DNA of 64,000 nt from Rhodocytophaga rosea (GTDB taxonomy: Bacteria > Bacteroidota > Bacteroidia > Cytophagales > 172606-1). The stretch lies in assembly GCF_010119975.1 (NCBI RefSeq), contig NZ_CP048222.1:3490501-3554500 (forward strand), in the 5' to 3' direction. Below the pieces are notes generated by a model. The model searched no databases and was not told the DNA's origin. It was given only the letters and a program-made list of their open reading frames with translations. This document shows positions 13,740 through 62,432 of this stretch, one piece after another. How positions within the stretch are numbered: position 1 is the first letter of the stretch; the number at the start of each line of letters is the position of its first letter. The translations under genes were made by a program, and so were the position numbers.

Positions 13740-15110
13740 TTATACCCTGATTCCAAATTTTTCGAGGCGACGGTATAAGGCAAAGCGGCTCATGCCCAGG
13801 GATTCTGCTACTTTACTGATATTGCCGGCATGATGGGTAATGGCCTTTAGAATCATGGCTTTTTCTATATCTTCCAGCGACATAGTGCCTACTTCTGGCA
13901 AATTATCTTTGGACGGCGTACCCGGCTGAATGGCATTGGCGAGGTTAAAATCATCCGCCTGTAATACTTGTCCTGGTGACATAATCACTGCCCGTTCAAT
14001 AGTATGTTTGAGTTCACGTATATTGCCGGGAAAAGTGCGGGATTGCAGCCAGCGAAGGGCATTTTCACTCAGTTCCATATTGTCTCTGCGGTAGGTTTTA
14101 GCAGCCATTTGTAAAAAATGTCTGGCAAGCAAAGGAATGTCTTCCCGGCGTTCCCGTAATGCTGGCAGATGCACAGAAATCAGGTTAAGCCTGTAATACA
14201 GATCTTCCCTGAATTCTTCTCTGGCTATCATGTCCATTAAGTTCTTATTGGTAGCTGAAACCACCCGCACATCTACATTACGGCTTTTGTTGGAGCCTAC
14301 TACTTCAAAGGTCCGTTCCTGTAATACCCGTAATAATTTTACCTGGCAGCTAAAATCCAGGTCGCCAATTTCGTCGAGGAAAATAGTACCGGTATGTGCT
14401 TCCTCGAAACGGCCTTTACGGTCAGCACGGGCATCCGTAAAGGCACCTTTTACATGGCCAAATAATTCGCTTTCAAACAAAGTAGAAGGTATGCTTCCCA
14501 GATTCACTTTTACCAGTGGCCTGTTTTTGCGCAGACTATTTCTATGAATAGCATCTGCTATTACTTCTTTACCAGTACCACTTTCGCCGGTAATCAGCAC
14601 AGAAGCATCTGTTGCACTCACCCGGCCAATGATTTGTAATAACTGAAGCAGTTTAGGATCACGGCCTACTACACCTGAAAAATCATATTGTTTATCGAGT
14701 TCCTCCCTTGAAAAAGCTTTGAGTGGTACATCAACACTGGCCAGTTTCAAAGCCGTACGCACTGATTGTACAATTTGCTCATTGGTCCAGGGTTTGGTAA
14801 TAAAGTCAGAAGCACCGGCTTGCATACCAGAAACGGCCAGAGAAATGCTTCCCCAGGAGGTAATGAGAATCACTGGTATAGCTGGAAAAGTAGTTTTGAT
14901 CTCCTGCAATAAAGCCATTCCTTCATTACCAGTCGTTTGCCTGGAAAAATTCATATCCTGCAATACCAGATCTATTCTTTCCTTTTTCAGCACAGCCATG
15001 GCATCTGTAGGAGATTTAGCGGTACGTGTTCCATAACCAGCCTGTTTGAGCACCAGTCCTAAGGATACCAATACAGAGGCATCGTCGTCAACAATCAGAA
15101 CAGTTTGCAT
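13740..15110 (-). CDS. Sigma-54-dependent NtrC-family response regulator
   Basis: The 456-residue protein has a receiver domain (1-120) with the acidic pocket at 8-10, phospho-acceptor Asp52 and Lys106. The AAA+ domain (about 145-380) has Walker A GESGTGKE (175-182), the sigma-54 contact loop as GAFTDA (222-227; canonical GAFTGA) and Walker B TIFLDEIGD. The Fis-type helix-turn-helix is at the end (NISKVAESLGMSRFALYRRL). It is the last gene of the minus-strand operon that encodes the MacAB-like exporter, so it very likely activates the sigma-54 promoter at 20172-20186. No histidine kinase gene is adjacent, so the phosphate donor must be encoded elsewhere. Confidence 0.93.
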   Translation of the reverse strand: MQTVLIVDDDASVLVSLGLVLKQAGYGTRTAKSPTDAMAVLKKERIDLVLQDMNFSRQTTGNEGMALLQEIKTTFPAIPVILITSWGSISLAVSGMQAGASDFITKPWTNEQIVQSVRTALKLASVDVPLKAFSREELDKQYDFSGVVGRDPKLLQLLQIIGRVSATDASVLITGESGTGKEVIADAIHRNSLRKNRPLVKVNLGSIPSTLFESELFGHVKGAFTDARADRKGRFEEAHTGTIFLDEIGDLDFSCQVKLLRVLQERTFEVVGSNKSRNVDVRVVSATNKNLMDMIAREEFREDLYYRLNLISVHLPALRERREDIPLLARHFLQMAAKTYRRDNMELSENALRWLQSRTFPGNIRELKHTIERAVIMSPGQVLQADDFNLANAIQPGTPSKDNLPEVGTMSLEDIEKAMILKAITHHAGNISKVAESLGMSRFALYRRLEKFGIRV

Positions 15111-15116
15111 GGAGGA

Positions 15117-15588
15117 AGTAAGTGATTGAGAGAATGAGTGATTAGTTAAGTTATATTATTTCTTGCTTTTGCAAAGACAGATAATAGTTCCAACGTTTCT
15201 TTTTTGAGCTCTGTCAGTTTTGTAGCTTGTACCATTTCTGTCTCTTCTAGGATCTCTAACCAGAATAATGTTTCGTCTGCTTCTTCTACAACAATGCTCA
15301 TTTTAGCAAAGAAATCTGCTTTCGACCGGGCTCTGCATGCTGCTCTATAATTGGCAGCAACTGATGTTGAAGAACGTATAAGTTGTTTTCCAACAATTAT
15401 TAACTCATCCGTTTTTGGCAATTTAGCATACATTTTAATAATACGTACGGATAGTTGTTTTGTCCGTTGCCTGAAGATTTCATTGAATTTTTCCTTTTCC
15501 ATGATAGATATTTAAGTACATACTGAATACAGTATAATACCTAAACATCACTCAATCACTCAATCACTCATTCTCTCAATCGCTTACT
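15117..15588. repeat. 472-bp segment bounded by a 27-bp inverted repeat, IVS-like
   Basis: The left arm is 15117-15143 and the right arm 15562-15588; they are reverse complements at 26 of 27 positions. The shared core is TCACTCATTCTCTCAAT. The right side also has a tandem run of TCACTCAA-type octamers (15549-15564). The only gene inside encodes a four-helix-bundle protein of the 23S rRNA intervening-sequence family. The right arm covers the stop codon of the permease gene, and the left arm ends seven bases from the start codon of the response regulator. In the operon mRNA the arms would fold into a long stem that loops out the whole gene. Confidence 0.8.
15146..15502 (-). CDS. Four helix bundle protein (23S rRNA intervening-sequence / S23 family)
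   Basis: The 118-residue protein is almost entirely helical. It shows the family hallmarks IVGKQLIRSSTSVAANYRAA followed by CRARSKADFFAKMSIVVEEADETLFWLEIL. Members are encoded inside intervening sequences of bacterial 23S rRNA and also as stand-alone genes; a relative, Avd, is an accessory protein of diversity-generating retroelements. The molecular role of the stand-alone forms is not established. Here it lies within an exporter operon, flanked by the inverted repeat at 15117-15143 and 15562-15588, which suggests it came in as an insertion. There is no reverse transcriptase or rRNA nearby. Confidence 0.88.
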   Translation of the reverse strand: MEKEKFNEIFRQRTKQLSVRIIKMYAKLPKTDELIIVGKQLIRSSTSVAANYRAACRARSKADFFAKMSIVVEEADETLFWLEILEETEMVQATKLTELKKETLELLSVFAKARNNIT

Positions 15589-16768
15589 CCGCATGTAAGG
15601 CTTCGGTGGGCTGAATTTTGGTAGCAAGCATACTGGGATAAATGCCGCATAGCACAGTTACTGCATAAATAGATAGTACCGAAATCAAAAGTGCAATTAT
15701 GTACACTTTCGTAGATACAAAACTCAACACACCCAGAATCGGAAATTGTATCACCAGTATTAATGCAGCCAGCATTCCTAAGCTGGTTATCATCAGTAGT
15801 TCTCCTAAAATTTGCCAGTTAATATCCTTTTTGGTAGCACCTGTTGCCCGGCGTAAGCCAATTTCGCTGATACGGCCCATTACATTCTGCCAGATAATGC
15901 CTATTAAACCCAAGGCTACCATGGCAATCAGGAAGGCAGCGATTAAACTGGCAACAATCAGTGGAGTAATGTACATACTGATTTTATCTTCCCTTTCACG
16001 GGTGAGTGATTCTACGCTAAACGTCCATTCCTTCACAGTGCCTTGTAATAATCTGGATAGCTTTTCCTCAAACTGAGCCGTGGTGCCGGGACGAACTTTT
16101 ATCACCAGGGTTTCAGGAATGCGGCCTGTTGTATCCTGCAAAGTCATTCGCTCGAAGTAAAAATTGGTAGACGCTGCATATTCACCATCCTTCTTATAGT
16201 TAGTAATCACGCCAACAATTTCGGTAGGTTTATCAGTATTATTCAGATCAAATAAAGGTTTACCAATAGGATCTTCTGCGCCAAAAACGGCCTGGGCAAA
16301 ATGTTCATTAATCACAACCGGGTTTTTATTACTCATCCCATCATCCGGCGTAAACCACCTGCCTCTGGTTATATGTAAATCGAGCGTCTGCACAAGGTCA
16401 TCAGTTCCGCCTGTTGCTTCATAATCGTACCTTTTTCCTTTAATTGAAGTAGAACCATTCCAGTTATTTGAACTAAATGGAGTAATGGACATCCCGGATA
16501 CAGACACTACTTCGTCCATGGTACGCAGATTAGCAAAGAGCTGACGGAATGAAGCTAACTTACTTATATTGCTACTCCCTTTTGTATCTATTTCTACAAC
16601 CCATTGATTTTCGTAGGTAAAACCTAAAGGATCTTTTTTATTATCGAGATAAAACACGGCCATGGTCACTACGGCATAGAGTACGATAAAAGAAAAGAAT
16701 ATTTCCGTCATGATCAGAAAGTTGGCTTTTCTGCGGTTCCAGATGAGTTTAAATATATGCCGTATCAT
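15584..16768 (-). CDS. ABC transporter permease, MacB/FtsX type (second permease of the operon)
   Basis: The 394-residue protein has one N-terminal helix (FLIMTEIFFSFIVLYAVVTM), a periplasmic MacB_PCD-like domain (about 45-255) and an FtsX domain of three helices (about 270-385). The FtsX domain contains the motif GEIGLRRATGATKKDI (here ISEIGLRRATGATK) and ends in SMLATKIQPTEALHAE. FtsX-type permeases transmit ATPase motion to the periplasmic domain (mechanotransmission) rather than forming a channel. It overlaps the preceding permease gene by four bases. The two permeases are likely a heterodimer working with the ATPase and adaptor encoded upstream. Confidence 0.9.
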   Translation of the reverse strand: MIRHIFKLIWNRRKANFLIMTEIFFSFIVLYAVVTMAVFYLDNKKDPLGFTYENQWVVEIDTKGSSNISKLASFRQLFANLRTMDEVVSVSGMSITPFSSNNWNGSTSIKGKRYDYEATGGTDDLVQTLDLHITRGRWFTPDDGMSNKNPVVINEHFAQAVFGAEDPIGKPLFDLNNTDKPTEIVGVITNYKKDGEYAASTNFYFERMTLQDTTGRIPETLVIKVRPGTTAQFEEKLSRLLQGTVKEWTFSVESLTREREDKISMYITPLIVASLIAAFLIAMVALGLIGIIWQNVMGRISEIGLRRATGATKKDINWQILGELLMITSLGMLAALILVIQFPILGVLSFVSTKVYIIALLISVLSIYAVTVLCGIYPSMLATKIQPTEALHAE

Positions 16769-18006
16769 TTGGAGCCTCCTTTCAGTGCATCAACCGGGTT
16801 AAGTTTAGACATTTTCCAGGCCGGATATACGCCGGATAGTAAGCCAAAGAATACAATAGTAAGTAATCCGTAACCAAAGATGCGCACATTCAGTTGCAGG
16901 TCGGCATAGCGAATCAGTGCTTGCTGATTAATATATTGTAGCACAAAATAAGATAACATAAAGCCTACTATACCACCTACTAAGGTGAGCAAGAGGTTTT
17001 CCACGATAAACTGGCCCACAAGTATATTGGAAGAGGCGCCAAACGCTTTGCGTACTCCTATTTCTGAGGATCTTTCAATAATGCGGCTAATGTTAATATT
17101 TACCAGATTGATAGTAGGCAAAATCATAAATAAGATCATAATACAAATAATAATAGTAATCATCATTCCGGAACGGTTATCCTGGTCAGAGCCACTGAGC
17201 AATTGCCTGGATATGGTTTCGAAGAAAGTATCCGCATTTACCTGGAGTTTATTAAGGTTTTTATCTGGCAATTCTACTTTGGTGAGCATAGCAGCAAAAT
17301 CAGATTTAATAAGCGGAAGATCATCAGGGCTCTTTGCTAAAATACTCGCCATAAAATTATCCATGAATTTATCTTTATAAATTGAAGAAGGCTGTGTACT
17401 AATGGGTACCCAAACATCAGAAAAACAAGTAAAACGCAGGATAGAAACATTATTCACCACACCTACCACCTGGTAATTCCTGCCACCCACATCAATTGAT
17501 TTGCCCAACGCAGATCCCTCACCAAATAACTGCCGACTGGTAGCCTGGTTAATTACGGCTACAGCATTGGCATTCTTTTCATCGTCGCTTGTTAAAGGAC
17601 GGCCTTCTATAAACTCAAATTCCATAATGTTCCAGAACTCGCCGTCGGTATACTTCAGATACAGAGGCAACGCTTCACCATTTTTATAGATATCTACTCC
17701 TTGCATTACGGAGTGTATGGATATTTTTTCAGCACCAGGCAAAGTGCGTACATAGGTATTTAAAAATTTGTATCCTGGTGGGCCATTCATGTTAAAACCT
17801 TCATCATTATGCATCCGCATAAAATACACTCCAAGTGTGCGGTCTGTTTTTATTTCAGGTGCGTGCGAACCAAATATATTGTCGAGCATGGCAGTGGCTA
17901 CCATAAGCACCACCAGTGTAAAGCTGATGCCAAACAAGCTGATGAAAGTGAAGAACTTGCGCCGCATAAGTACTTTCGTGGCGATTAATAAATAATTTCT
18001 TAACAT
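16765..18006 (-). CDS. ABC transporter permease, MacB/FtsX type (first permease of the operon)
   Basis: The 413-residue protein shares the layout of its neighbour: an N-terminal helix (FFTFISLFGISFTLVVLMVA), a large periplasmic MacB_PCD-like domain (about 45-270), and C-terminal FtsX helices with SSEIGVRKAFGASSNILVGQ and the ending MSKLNPVDALKGG. Its stop overlaps the start of the second permease by four bases. It lies 168 bases after the ATPase gene; that gap is filled by a dispersed inverted-repeat element, and its start codon is only four bases from the arm, so the ribosome-binding region lies inside the repeat. Function: antimicrobial, lipoprotein or peptide efflux by family analogy; cargo unknown. 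Confidence 0.9.
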   Translation of the reverse strand: MLRNYLLIATKVLMRRKFFTFISLFGISFTLVVLMVATAMLDNIFGSHAPEIKTDRTLGVYFMRMHNDEGFNMNGPPGYKFLNTYVRTLPGAEKISIHSVMQGVDIYKNGEALPLYLKYTDGEFWNIMEFEFIEGRPLTSDDEKNANAVAVINQATSRQLFGEGSALGKSIDVGGRNYQVVGVVNNVSILRFTCFSDVWVPISTQPSSIYKDKFMDNFMASILAKSPDDLPLIKSDFAAMLTKVELPDKNLNKLQVNADTFFETISRQLLSGSDQDNRSGMMITIIICIMILFMILPTINLVNINISRIIERSSEIGVRKAFGASSNILVGQFIVENLLLTLVGGIVGFMLSYFVLQYINQQALIRYADLQLNVRIFGYGLLTIVFFGLLSGVYPAWKMSKLNPVDALKGGSK

Positions 18007-18010
18007 AATT

Positions 18011-18173
18011 GTCTGGAACCTGGAGTTGCAGGATTAAAGGATTTACCGGAATATTTTAGAGTGAATTTTTGTCTGGAACCTGGATTACACAGAATATTGG
18101 AGTTGCAGGATTAGGAATTAAGTGAAAATAATAATCCCAAGAATCCTTTAATCCGATGAATCCAGGTTCCAGA
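18011..18173. repeat. Dispersed inverted-repeat element, copy A
   Basis: The left arm starts at 18011 with GTCTGGAACCTGGA and continues to GGATTAAAGGATTT (18044). The right arm (18142-18173) is its reverse complement and ends in AATCCAGGTTCCAGA. The left arm is partly duplicated at 18071-18113, where TGGAGTTGCAGGATTA recurs. The element fills the gap between the ATPase gene stop (18175) and the next start codon (18006) within an operon. Matching elements are at 29447-29624 and 62238-62432. Confidence 0.82.
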
Positions 18174-60900: not shown

Positions 60901-62235
60901 ATGTCAGATCATCACGCTTCCGAGCCACATTTACAGCGTTCATTAGGACCATTTATGCTCTGGGGCTTAGGTGTCGGGCTGGTGATTTCAGGCATGTATT
61001 TCGGCTGGAATTTAGGGCTTGAAAAAGGCGGAACGTTGGGTTTTGCCATTGCTACATTTTTCATCATCATTCTCTACATCACCTTTACTTTCTCTTATGC
61101 CGAACTAGCCTGTGCCATTCCAAAAGCCGGTGGCGCATTCGACTATGCTACTCAGGCATTAGGCAAAGGTCCGGGCTTTATTTGTGGCGTTGCCCAGCTC
61201 ATTGAGTTTATTTTTGCACCTCCAGCCATTGCAGCAGCTATCGGCGCTTATTTTCATATCTACTTTCCGGATATTCCGGTAGTAGTCATAGCCATTATAG
61301 CCTATGTATTATTCACCACACTTAATATTATTGGCCTGAAGCCAGCCACCCTATTTGAAATGGTGATTACGATTCTGGCCGTAGCAGAGCTCTTGCTATT
61401 TGCCGGGATTACGCTGCCGCATATAGAAGTGAGTAATTTTTCAAAAAATGCGCTTCCCCATGGAGTGGCTGGTATTTTTGCTTCCGTACCTTTTGCTATA
61501 TGGTTTTTTCTGGCGATTGAGGGAGTCGCTAACCTGGCTGAAGAAACAGTAAATCCCCAGAAAAACATCAGTACTGGCCTTACCTGGACTATAGCCACAC
61601 TGGTTTTTTTATGCGTTCTTACTTTTGTAAGTGCCGTAGGCGTGAATGGGTGGGAAAGTATTGTGTTTACGCCTTCCGGACAAACTTCTGATTCTCCCTT
61701 ACCTATGGCATTGGCACAAGTGGCTGGCAGTTCTGAATTGATGTATCACTTACTGGTAAGCATCGGCCTGCTGGGATTAGTAGCTTCTTTTCATGGAATT
61801 ATTCTGGCGGCTGGAAGGGCTTCTTTCGAATTTGGAAGGGTAGGCTATGCTCCTAAATGGCTTGGAAACATTCACCCTCGTTTTAAAACGCCAGCCTATG
61901 CTTTGCTTGTGAATATGGGCATTGGCATTATTGCTTTACTGACTGGCAAAACCGGAGAGATTATTACGCTGGCTGCTTTTGGAGCGATTACTTTGTACAT
62001 CTTTTCCATGATTTCCTTGTTTGCCCTGCGGAAAAAGGCTCCACAATTACCTCGACCATTTAAAGTACCTGTATATCCCTGGTTTCCTGGTATTGCTCTG
62101 ATATTAGCTGGTATCGCCTTACTTGCCATGTGTGTGTATAATCTGAACCTGGCTGTTATTTACCTGAGTATGCTGGCACTGGCCTATATTGGATTCCGTT
62201 TTGTGAGTAAAAAGGAATTGAAGGTGTATAAGTAA
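60901..62235 (+). CDS. Ethanolamine-type APC permease
   Basis: The 444-residue protein has 12 membrane helices and the APC signature. Its sequence closely follows ethanolamine permeases: RSLGPFMLWGLGVGLVISGM, YFGWNLGLEKGGTLG, CAIPKAGGAFDYATQALGKG, FIFAPPAIAAAIGAYFH, AIEGVANLAEETVNPQKNI, GRASFEFGRVGYAPKWLGNI. It probably takes up ethanolamine across the inner membrane. A glutamine synthetase homologue follows, separated by a dispersed-repeat element that starts three bases after this stop. Together they suggest glutamylation of ethanolamine as an entry route; this is an inference. Confidence 0.86.
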   Translation: MSDHHASEPHLQRSLGPFMLWGLGVGLVISGMYFGWNLGLEKGGTLGFAIATFFIIILYITFTFSYAELACAIPKAGGAFDYATQALGKGPGFICGVAQLIEFIFAPPAIAAAIGAYFHIYFPDIPVVVIAIIAYVLFTTLNIIGLKPATLFEMVITILAVAELLLFAGITLPHIEVSNFSKNALPHGVAGIFASVPFAIWFFLAIEGVANLAEETVNPQKNISTGLTWTIATLVFLCVLTFVSAVGVNGWESIVFTPSGQTSDSPLPMALAQVAGSSELMYHLLVSIGLLGLVASFHGIILAAGRASFEFGRVGYAPKWLGNIHPRFKTPAYALLVNMGIGIIALLTGKTGEIITLAAFGAITLYIFSMISLFALRKKAPQLPRPFKVPVYPWFPGIALILAGIALLAMCVYNLNLAVIYLSMLALAYIGFRFVSKKELKVYK

Positions 62236-62237
62236 CT

Positions 62238-62432
62238 GTCTGGAACCTGGATTTATCGGATTTGGGGATTTTTATGGTTAAGGATTGAATAGCTGAATGT
62301 TACATTGTTGAATGGTTGAATTATATCAATCTATTTGTAAAACTAAGTATTGTATTTCATCCTACTAAGACCCATACATAATAGAGTTAAAATCCGGATA
62401 ATCCTTTAATCTGATAAATCCAGGTTCCAGAC
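62238..62432. repeat. Dispersed inverted-repeat element, copy C
   Basis: The left arm (62238-62270) begins GTCTGGAACCTGGATTTATC, and the right arm (62391-62432) is its reverse complement ending in AAATCCAGGTTCCAGAC. It starts three bases after the permease stop codon. The remaining 183 bases up to the next gene (62433-62615) hold no recognisable feature; a GCGGGATTTTTTT near 62557-62569 is only loosely pairable with CCCGC about 40 bases upstream. Confidence 0.85.

Follow-up and report, generated by a model that had tools for sequence, protein, structure and literature searches.

Inverted-repeat boxes around four-helix-bundle genes in operon junctions point to an overlooked class of bacterial genetic element

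Introduction

Among the closest described counterparts of the element presented here are the intervening sequences (IVSs) of 23S rRNA. RNase III cuts them out without ligation, and short forms without an ORF exist beside long ones. The IVS of Coxiella measures 428-444 nt, and the function of the S23/IVP family is given as not known in the available text of the same paper (PMC4990558). That text also describes a Xanthomonas protein as a homopentamer, deposited as 2GSC (entry code from PMC10053308), and the accessible part of the latter paper says that PF05635 resembles Avd. In CPR bacteria, insertions in 16S rRNA as well as in 23S rRNA are reported to hold ORFs of the 23S_rRNA_IVP type (PMC11270868, as far as its available text goes), and PMC10910872 mentions the 23S rRNA IVP once, in a figure legend.

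Other systems are built on repeats. REPINs are extragenic inverted doublets that form hairpins, are dispersed over the genome and are tied to a resident gene, the RAYT (PMC3116915, available part). A MITE with 23-nt repeats is described in the accessible text of PMC4596501. TAACTGA heptamer repeats are documented in Beggiatoaceae, Cyanobacteria and five Bacteroidetes, and the terms "four helix", "S23", "intervening" and "23S rRNA" are absent from the main text of that paper in its available form (PMC4679880).

The locus analyzed here lies in a 64,000-nucleotide stretch of the Rhodocytophaga rosea genome, hereafter the window. The explanation that we prefer, and to which we give an even chance, is that of a boxed four-helix element: one S23-family gene within two inverted arms made of a private repeat, which arrived as a unit in a tight co-directional junction, whose arms fold the gene out and whose protein binds its own arms. 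What can be read from sequence is the box, the code of its repeats and the tie between that code and the protein lineage, together with the co-evolution of the arms, the placement, the purifying selection (two pairs) and the existence of gene-free pairs with the same arms.

The boxed element of the window

On the minus strand, the operon comprises an ORF that we take to be HlyD-like (it has no NCBIfam match at E 1e-30), an ABC ATPase, two MacB/FtsX permeases, the boxed gene and a sigma-54 response regulator, which fits the exporter operon proposed in a sequence-only reading of this DNA. The boxed ORF (15146..15502, minus strand, 118 amino acids) is the sole ORF between the arms, as that reading had it, and belongs to the family of rRNA IVS ORFs, with 64.8 bits for PF05635 (cut-off 33.8) and 87.5 bits for TIGR02436, also above cut-off. 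The 5' arm of the transcript stem (15562..15588, minus strand), an octamer repeat with a best period of 8, and the 3' arm (15117..15143, minus strand) are complementary at 26 of 27 positions. Their score of 24.5 is reached by 0/200 dinucleotide shuffles, and the maximum among 64 swapped flank pairs is 12. The arms adjoin the flanking genes on both sides, again in agreement with the earlier claim: the stop codon of the upstream MacB/FtsX-type permease (15584..16768, minus strand; PF12704, PF02687) falls at 15584-15586, within the right arm, and the ATG (15108-15110) of the downstream sigma-54-dependent response regulator (13740..15110, minus strand; PF00072, PF00158, PF02954) stands 6 nt off the left arm.

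The RNA of 15105-15600 (minus strand) has a predicted folding energy of -138.7 kcal/mol, versus a mean of -99.8 in 100 shuffles, none of which is as stable (z = -7.0). In this predicted fold, the stop codon of the permease and the start codon of the regulator are both base-paired within the stem; looping out would therefore place them side by side. The suggestion that the stem could fold the gene out as a loop, with the flanking stop and start drawn together, is supported at the level of the predicted fold. Inward of the 5' arm, 15548..15561 (minus strand) holds additional octamer units with further inverted repeats. The octamer run at ~15548-15580 had been thought to be a possible duplication scar; this was rejected, as these octamers are the arm's own 8-nt repeat units, with a surplus on one side. 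Rfam returned nothing in 14000-17000, up to E 1.

The AF2 model of the protein (mean pLDDT 95.1) displays four helices. Foldseek retrieved 2rld (E 1e-5), 2gsc (E 0.016, TM ~0.8) and, at E 0.45 and with a monomer model, Avd (4DWL) and the DGR ribonucleoprotein (8UB7) with TM 0.74-0.75. Unlike a DGR, the box houses no reverse transcriptase, its adjoining ORFs being the permease and the regulator, and no template/variable repeat was noticed in it. The protein may bind RNA. In the two four-helix gene pairs tested, dN is 0.10 and 0.14 with pS of 0.82 and 0.96 (near-saturated synonymous sites), and by this comparison the protein is under purifying selection in both pairs. Some boxed four-helix genes (L076, L082, L363, L426) carry an internal stop codon; decay therefore occurs.

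With the 23S rRNA IVSs the element shares the S23/IVP-family ORF and the complementary ends that form a stem. It differs in its host, an operon junction between permease and regulator instead of an rRNA gene, in the arms of boxed elements, which are arrays of 7- or 8-nt repeats, and in the purifying selection on the protein, the Coxiella ORF being said, in the text available, to decay. As it resides outside rRNA and its excision is putative, we do not class it with the rRNA IVSs; it has the look of an IVS-type element placed in mRNA.

The same junction in relatives

In relatives, the gap between permease and regulator is 2 nt in G016, 87 nt in G034, 92 nt in G003 and G005, 128 nt in the congener G001, 245 nt in G035 and 458 nt in G006. 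By eye, the gap of G034 holds another hairpin and that of G006 another inverted repeat. The congener was considered as a clean empty site and set aside; its gap may, by eye, hold a decayed hairpin. Given the length and possible content of that gap, the 2-nt junction of G016 is the better empty site, which answers the call for one in related operons. Comparison with these relatives supports the window element being an insertion. The idea of an IVS-type insertion in a protein operon thus keeps its box, its stem and its insertion relative to relatives, and loses the octamer scar.

A four-helix gene that sits co-oriented inside an operon could also be a regular part of it, for example a subunit of the regulator. 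This is highly improbable: tblastn revealed no four-helix gene within 1500 nt upstream of the homologous regulator at any of nine other loci (two of the loci, L026 and L029, which belong to G018 and G004, lack a recognisable neighbouring permease), and related four-helix genes are found in unrelated contexts.

The window's genome has two PF05635 genes. The second is located between scoA and scoB and is boxed by a different octamer; its ortholog in the congener G001 occupies the same place, within a paired box of altered sequence.

Boxed four-helix genes in other genomes

The search for four-helix genes with similar arms in other genomes, which the sequence-only reading had called for, found them widely: over three samples, such a box surrounds 212 of 270 homologs (87/122, 66/79 and 59/69), which are not independent counts because orthologs recur. 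The first sample comprises 122 loci in list order, from PF05635 matches in 194 genomes of the order (two short-contig rows skipped), window-protein matches in 395 genomes of the phylum, and three of the window's genus. The 87 boxed loci pass a cut of score 12 with at most 3 of 300 shuffles as good; 78/122 beat all 300 dinucleotide shuffles, the control with swapped flanks giving 1.8%. The second sample counts 79 of 80 named loci, and its boxed genes include members from Pontibacter, Hymenobacter, Pedobacter, Mucilaginibacter, Dyadobacter, Dokdonia and Chryseobacterium, as well as from MAGs labelled Acidobacteria, Nitrospinia, Planctomycetota, Calditrichota and Nitrospirae, labels that may be wrong. 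For the third, 70 of 102 matches in 12 genomes of one genus were read with a cut of score 12 and at most 2 of 200 shuffles; 60/70 are boxed, or 59/69 with one locus left out.

At the same loci, a score of at least 14 is reached by 69% of 201 four-helix genes versus 3.4% of 531 other genes, and by 16% of the same 201 when their flanks are compared as direct repeats. Homologs without arms at the cut used (35/122, 13/79 and 10/69) speak against the preferred explanation. No paper on boxed S23 genes outside rRNA was found in the open literature searched. Boxed four-helix genes are real, general and not previously described in that literature.

The repeat code of the arms

The arms consist of degenerate repeats in tandem, whose units mostly measure 7 or 8 nt as judged from the best period of the sequence. 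In sample 1 this is 7 in 67 arms, 8 in 18 and weak in 2 of 87; in shuffled arms 24% pass the period cut, spread over 5-11. The 66 arms of sample 2 favour 8 (46 arms; 7 in 13, 4 in 1, weak in 6), and the 60 of sample 3 favour 7 (34 arms; 8 in 11, 9 in 1, weak in 14). In samples 1 and 2, G outnumbers C in the 5' arm at 141 of the 153 boxed loci. The heptamers of PMC4679880 resemble these arms as 7-nt intergenic repeats near start codons and differ from them as direct repeats of a single motif, according to the available text of that paper. Three-frame stops were considered as the reason for units of 7 or 8 nt; inward 5' arms have them in 51% versus 27% in shuffles, yet this reading was dropped because periodicity alone yields them and several motifs contain no stop.

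Several comparisons relate the repeat to the protein. On a protein tree with few columns and many open forks, the label 7 or 8 changes 7 times versus 16.6 when shuffled (0/500). Between taxonomic families, arm 4-mer similarity correlates with protein similarity (rho 0.27, 0/1000 permutations), with a value of 0.03 for the outer flanks. For 15 pairs that share a genome in sample 1, the similarity of the arms is uncorrelated with that of the proteins (rho -0.04), which speaks against the preferred explanation. In sample 3, the arms of ortholog-like proteins across genomes reach a mean similarity score of 18.8 (n=42), and those of paralogs in the same genome score 5.8 (n=134), about the level of pairs without relationship (5.7, n=1509). 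By these measures, the arm motif and unit length follow the protein lineage and not the genome.

The two arms of an element also co-evolve. In 24 of 27 non-redundant pairs of orthologous elements (both flanks homologous, proteins 40-80% identical), an arm pairs better with its partner than with the arm of the ortholog (p 2e-5); ortholog pairs of at least 80% amino-acid identity display no such excess (7/15). Template-switch correction of imperfect palindromes, a known mechanism, could produce arm co-evolution in place of selection on the stem, and either would explain it. This alternative and the missing excess among close orthologs weigh against the preferred explanation.

Placement in gene junctions

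The median length of an element is 483 bp. Neighbours could be called for 142 of 153 elements, of which 115 are co-oriented with both neighbours; the others lie between convergent genes (14), opposite to both neighbours (11) or between divergent genes (2), and argue against the preferred explanation. The median distance is 2 nt from the upstream stop to the arm (n=129) and 8 nt from the arm to the downstream start (n=117). With the element removed, the gap would have a median of 13 nt (n=115) versus 69.5 nt for control gaps (n=186; p 3e-8). Synteny was compared with a requirement of 80 aligned columns: 47/47 pairs of at least 80% amino-acid identity with all flanks readable are syntenic, as are 65% at 70-80% identity and 3% at 50-60%. 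Close homologs being syntenic, the element is mostly a stable resident. The pair L047/L050 (88% identity), outside this count as a flank is missing, has an unmatched upstream flank.

The murD-ftsW junction was read in 70 genomes, from 79 matches, of one genus (g98) that we take to be Flavobacterium; murD scores above its NCBIfam cut-off, and for ftsW the best model is below cut-off. A four-helix gene is present in 7 genomes, 15 gaps are of 40 nt or less and 48 of 41-170 nt; genomes with FtsW 91-95% identical to the query differ in the state of the junction. Of the 48 mid-size gaps, 12 pass the arm cut without a gene, with a best period of 7 in 10 of them. Among these gene-free 7-nt hairpins (L289, L296, L312, L331, L333 and others) the hairpin is retained, with a motif that is replaced from one species to the next (GTTTCAA, GGTTTTG and others).

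Such gene-free boxes with motifs that differ between species are what a passive passenger would leave: slippage and palindrome correction would make operon junctions in these phyla grow 7- or 8-nt hairpins that serve mRNA processing or coupling, and the gene would merely survive inside some of them. We judge this improbable, as motif and period track the protein lineage, and as the boxes that were read are filled by one protein family while other genes are seldom boxed.

The expectation that the motif of a gene-free murD-ftsW hairpin would be matched by a four-helix element of the same genome failed, the genome's own element being best in 2/12 and at rank 2 or better in 5/12 (70 of 102 gene places read); this, too, speaks against the preferred explanation. 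At L321, a murD-ftsW gap of 163 nt bears the arm motif of a boxed gene (TTTTAGA type) and no gene; it fails the arm cut (6/200 shuffles) and is possibly a deletion derivative or a precursor.

Dispersed arms and gene-free hairpins

The arm pattern of the window occurs at 104 places in its own genome (G000) with up to 3 mismatches, versus 3 for the reversed control. Among 99 places listed, 18 convergent arm pairs within 600 bp and none in the opposite order were found. In 17 of the 18, only 19-93 nt separate the arm clusters, and these pairs are therefore gene-free. The sequence-only reading had held that arms elsewhere without the gene would count against an insertion; here they are read as a dispersed repeat family and the insertion stands. 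Gene-free hairpins read in context lie between co-directional genes in 8 of 9 cases, at distances of up to 221 nt. When 461 kb, made up of the window and 20 stretches of its genome, were searched without guidance, 8 inverted repeats reached score 14 with a loop above 15 nt, 4 of them periodic, versus 6 and none periodic in a Markov control; hairpins of this kind are therefore sparse.

Across genomes, the pattern is abundant where a window-like gene is present (G000, G004, G007, G563, G034) and absent or weak where the gene is missing or distant. Counts, with reversed controls in brackets, are high in G007 (74; 0), G004 (25; 0), G034 (27; 1) and G563 (136; 1), and the window protein has matches of 57% amino-acid identity in G007, 78% in G004 and 43% in G034. 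They are low in G001 (1; 3), G018 (1; 2), G002 (14; 13), G003 (12; 3), G005 (11; 6) and G006 (10; 4), where the matches are distant (G001, E 2.5e-9; G006, E 6.9e-13) or, up to E 1e-6, missing (G002, G003, G005, G018). Two genomes fit poorly: G268 has a boxed gene of the window clade (L074) with GTGATTGA arms, yet 6 pattern matches (control 0), and G035 has 116 matches versus 73 in its control. The exact pattern occurs in 8 of 395 genomes. Five (G000, G563, G049, G035, G034) show at least 4 matches above control. In each of these the window protein finds a homolog at E 1.1e-16 or better, although 168 of the 395 genomes have a match at 1e-12.

Dispersed, extragenic hairpin doublets of one polarity recall the REPIN/RAYT system, and the terminal inverted repeats around the window gene and in the gene-free pairs recall MITEs, though the arms run into stop codons, which would mask a target-site duplication. 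The elements could then form a selfish, REPIN-like mobile family, in which the four-helix protein, together with a host polymerase or reverse transcriptase, spreads the arms, and the gene-free hairpins are non-autonomous copies. Besides the pattern counts and the polarity of the pairs, two cases of changed surroundings are in its favour: the G004 homolog, on a contig that ends at the gene, shares a similar 5' arm, yet the region upstream of it resembles neither the permease nor the regulator of the window, and L177 (70% identity) is not syntenic. We nevertheless regard this explanation as rather unlikely. The closest homologs are syntenic wherever their flanks are readable (L047/L050 apart), the protein is under purifying selection in the two tested pairs, the Pfam scan revealed no catalytic family, the counts misfit in G268 and G035, and the murD-ftsW motifs went against expectation.

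The resident gene, moreover, encodes a four-helix protein and not a Y1 transposase as in RAYTs. A RAYT was considered as the mover, and the window arms were found in 0/28 Y1-transposase loci read (of 30 taken, from 43 matches in 8 of 9 genomes), which include 4 of the 5 matches of the window's genome; a RAYT is therefore not a likely mover. Y1 genes at L434, L435, L438, L439, L440, L455 and L457 are flanked by inverted repeats of their own, as expected of RAYTs and unlike the window arms.

Proposed mechanism and significance

In the preferred explanation, the whole element would arrive at once where two co-directional genes adjoin closely, and be transcribed together with the operon. The arms would pair in the mRNA and the gene fold out as a loop; the upstream stop would stay adjacent to the downstream start, so that the insert could be tolerated in the operon in the way that an IVS is in rRNA. 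The protein would probably form a pentamer, as do 2GSC and the accessory protein Avd of DGRs, and would bind the repeats of its own arms, by which it might protect or help to copy arm-bearing RNA. Spread to new junctions would be rare.

Boxed four-helix genes point to an overlooked class of genetic element. A more tentative generalisation, which we put below even chances, would be "one protein, one repeat code": the Avd-like pentamer of each lineage would recognise a repeat of 7 or 8 nt that is private to the stem enclosing its own gene, and boxed elements would form a multi-phylum class of RNA-level insertions, of which the rRNA IVSs would be the special case that landed in rRNA. The private inverted repeat code around most operon members is an obvious candidate ligand for the S23/IVP family, and makes its role testable with one binding experiment. 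Boxed elements also suggest how several hundred bases can sit in operons such as murD-ftsW, and where rRNA IVSs may originate.

Other hairpins

In G563, four loci (L256, L257, L258, L266) have long hairpins of 265-815 bp with arms of 7- or 8-nt repeats and, by eye, nested inner repeat arms; tblastn revealed no four-helix gene inside them. A second dispersed inverted-repeat family, with the arm TCTGGAACCTGGATT, occupies 9 places with up to 2 mismatches versus 0.15 expected. It is represented twice in the window: a gene-free hairpin (18072..18173; arms 15/15, loop 72) lies 1 nt from the stop of the ABC ATPase in the operon of the boxed gene, and a second pair (62238-62432) starts 2 nt after ORF 60901-62235.
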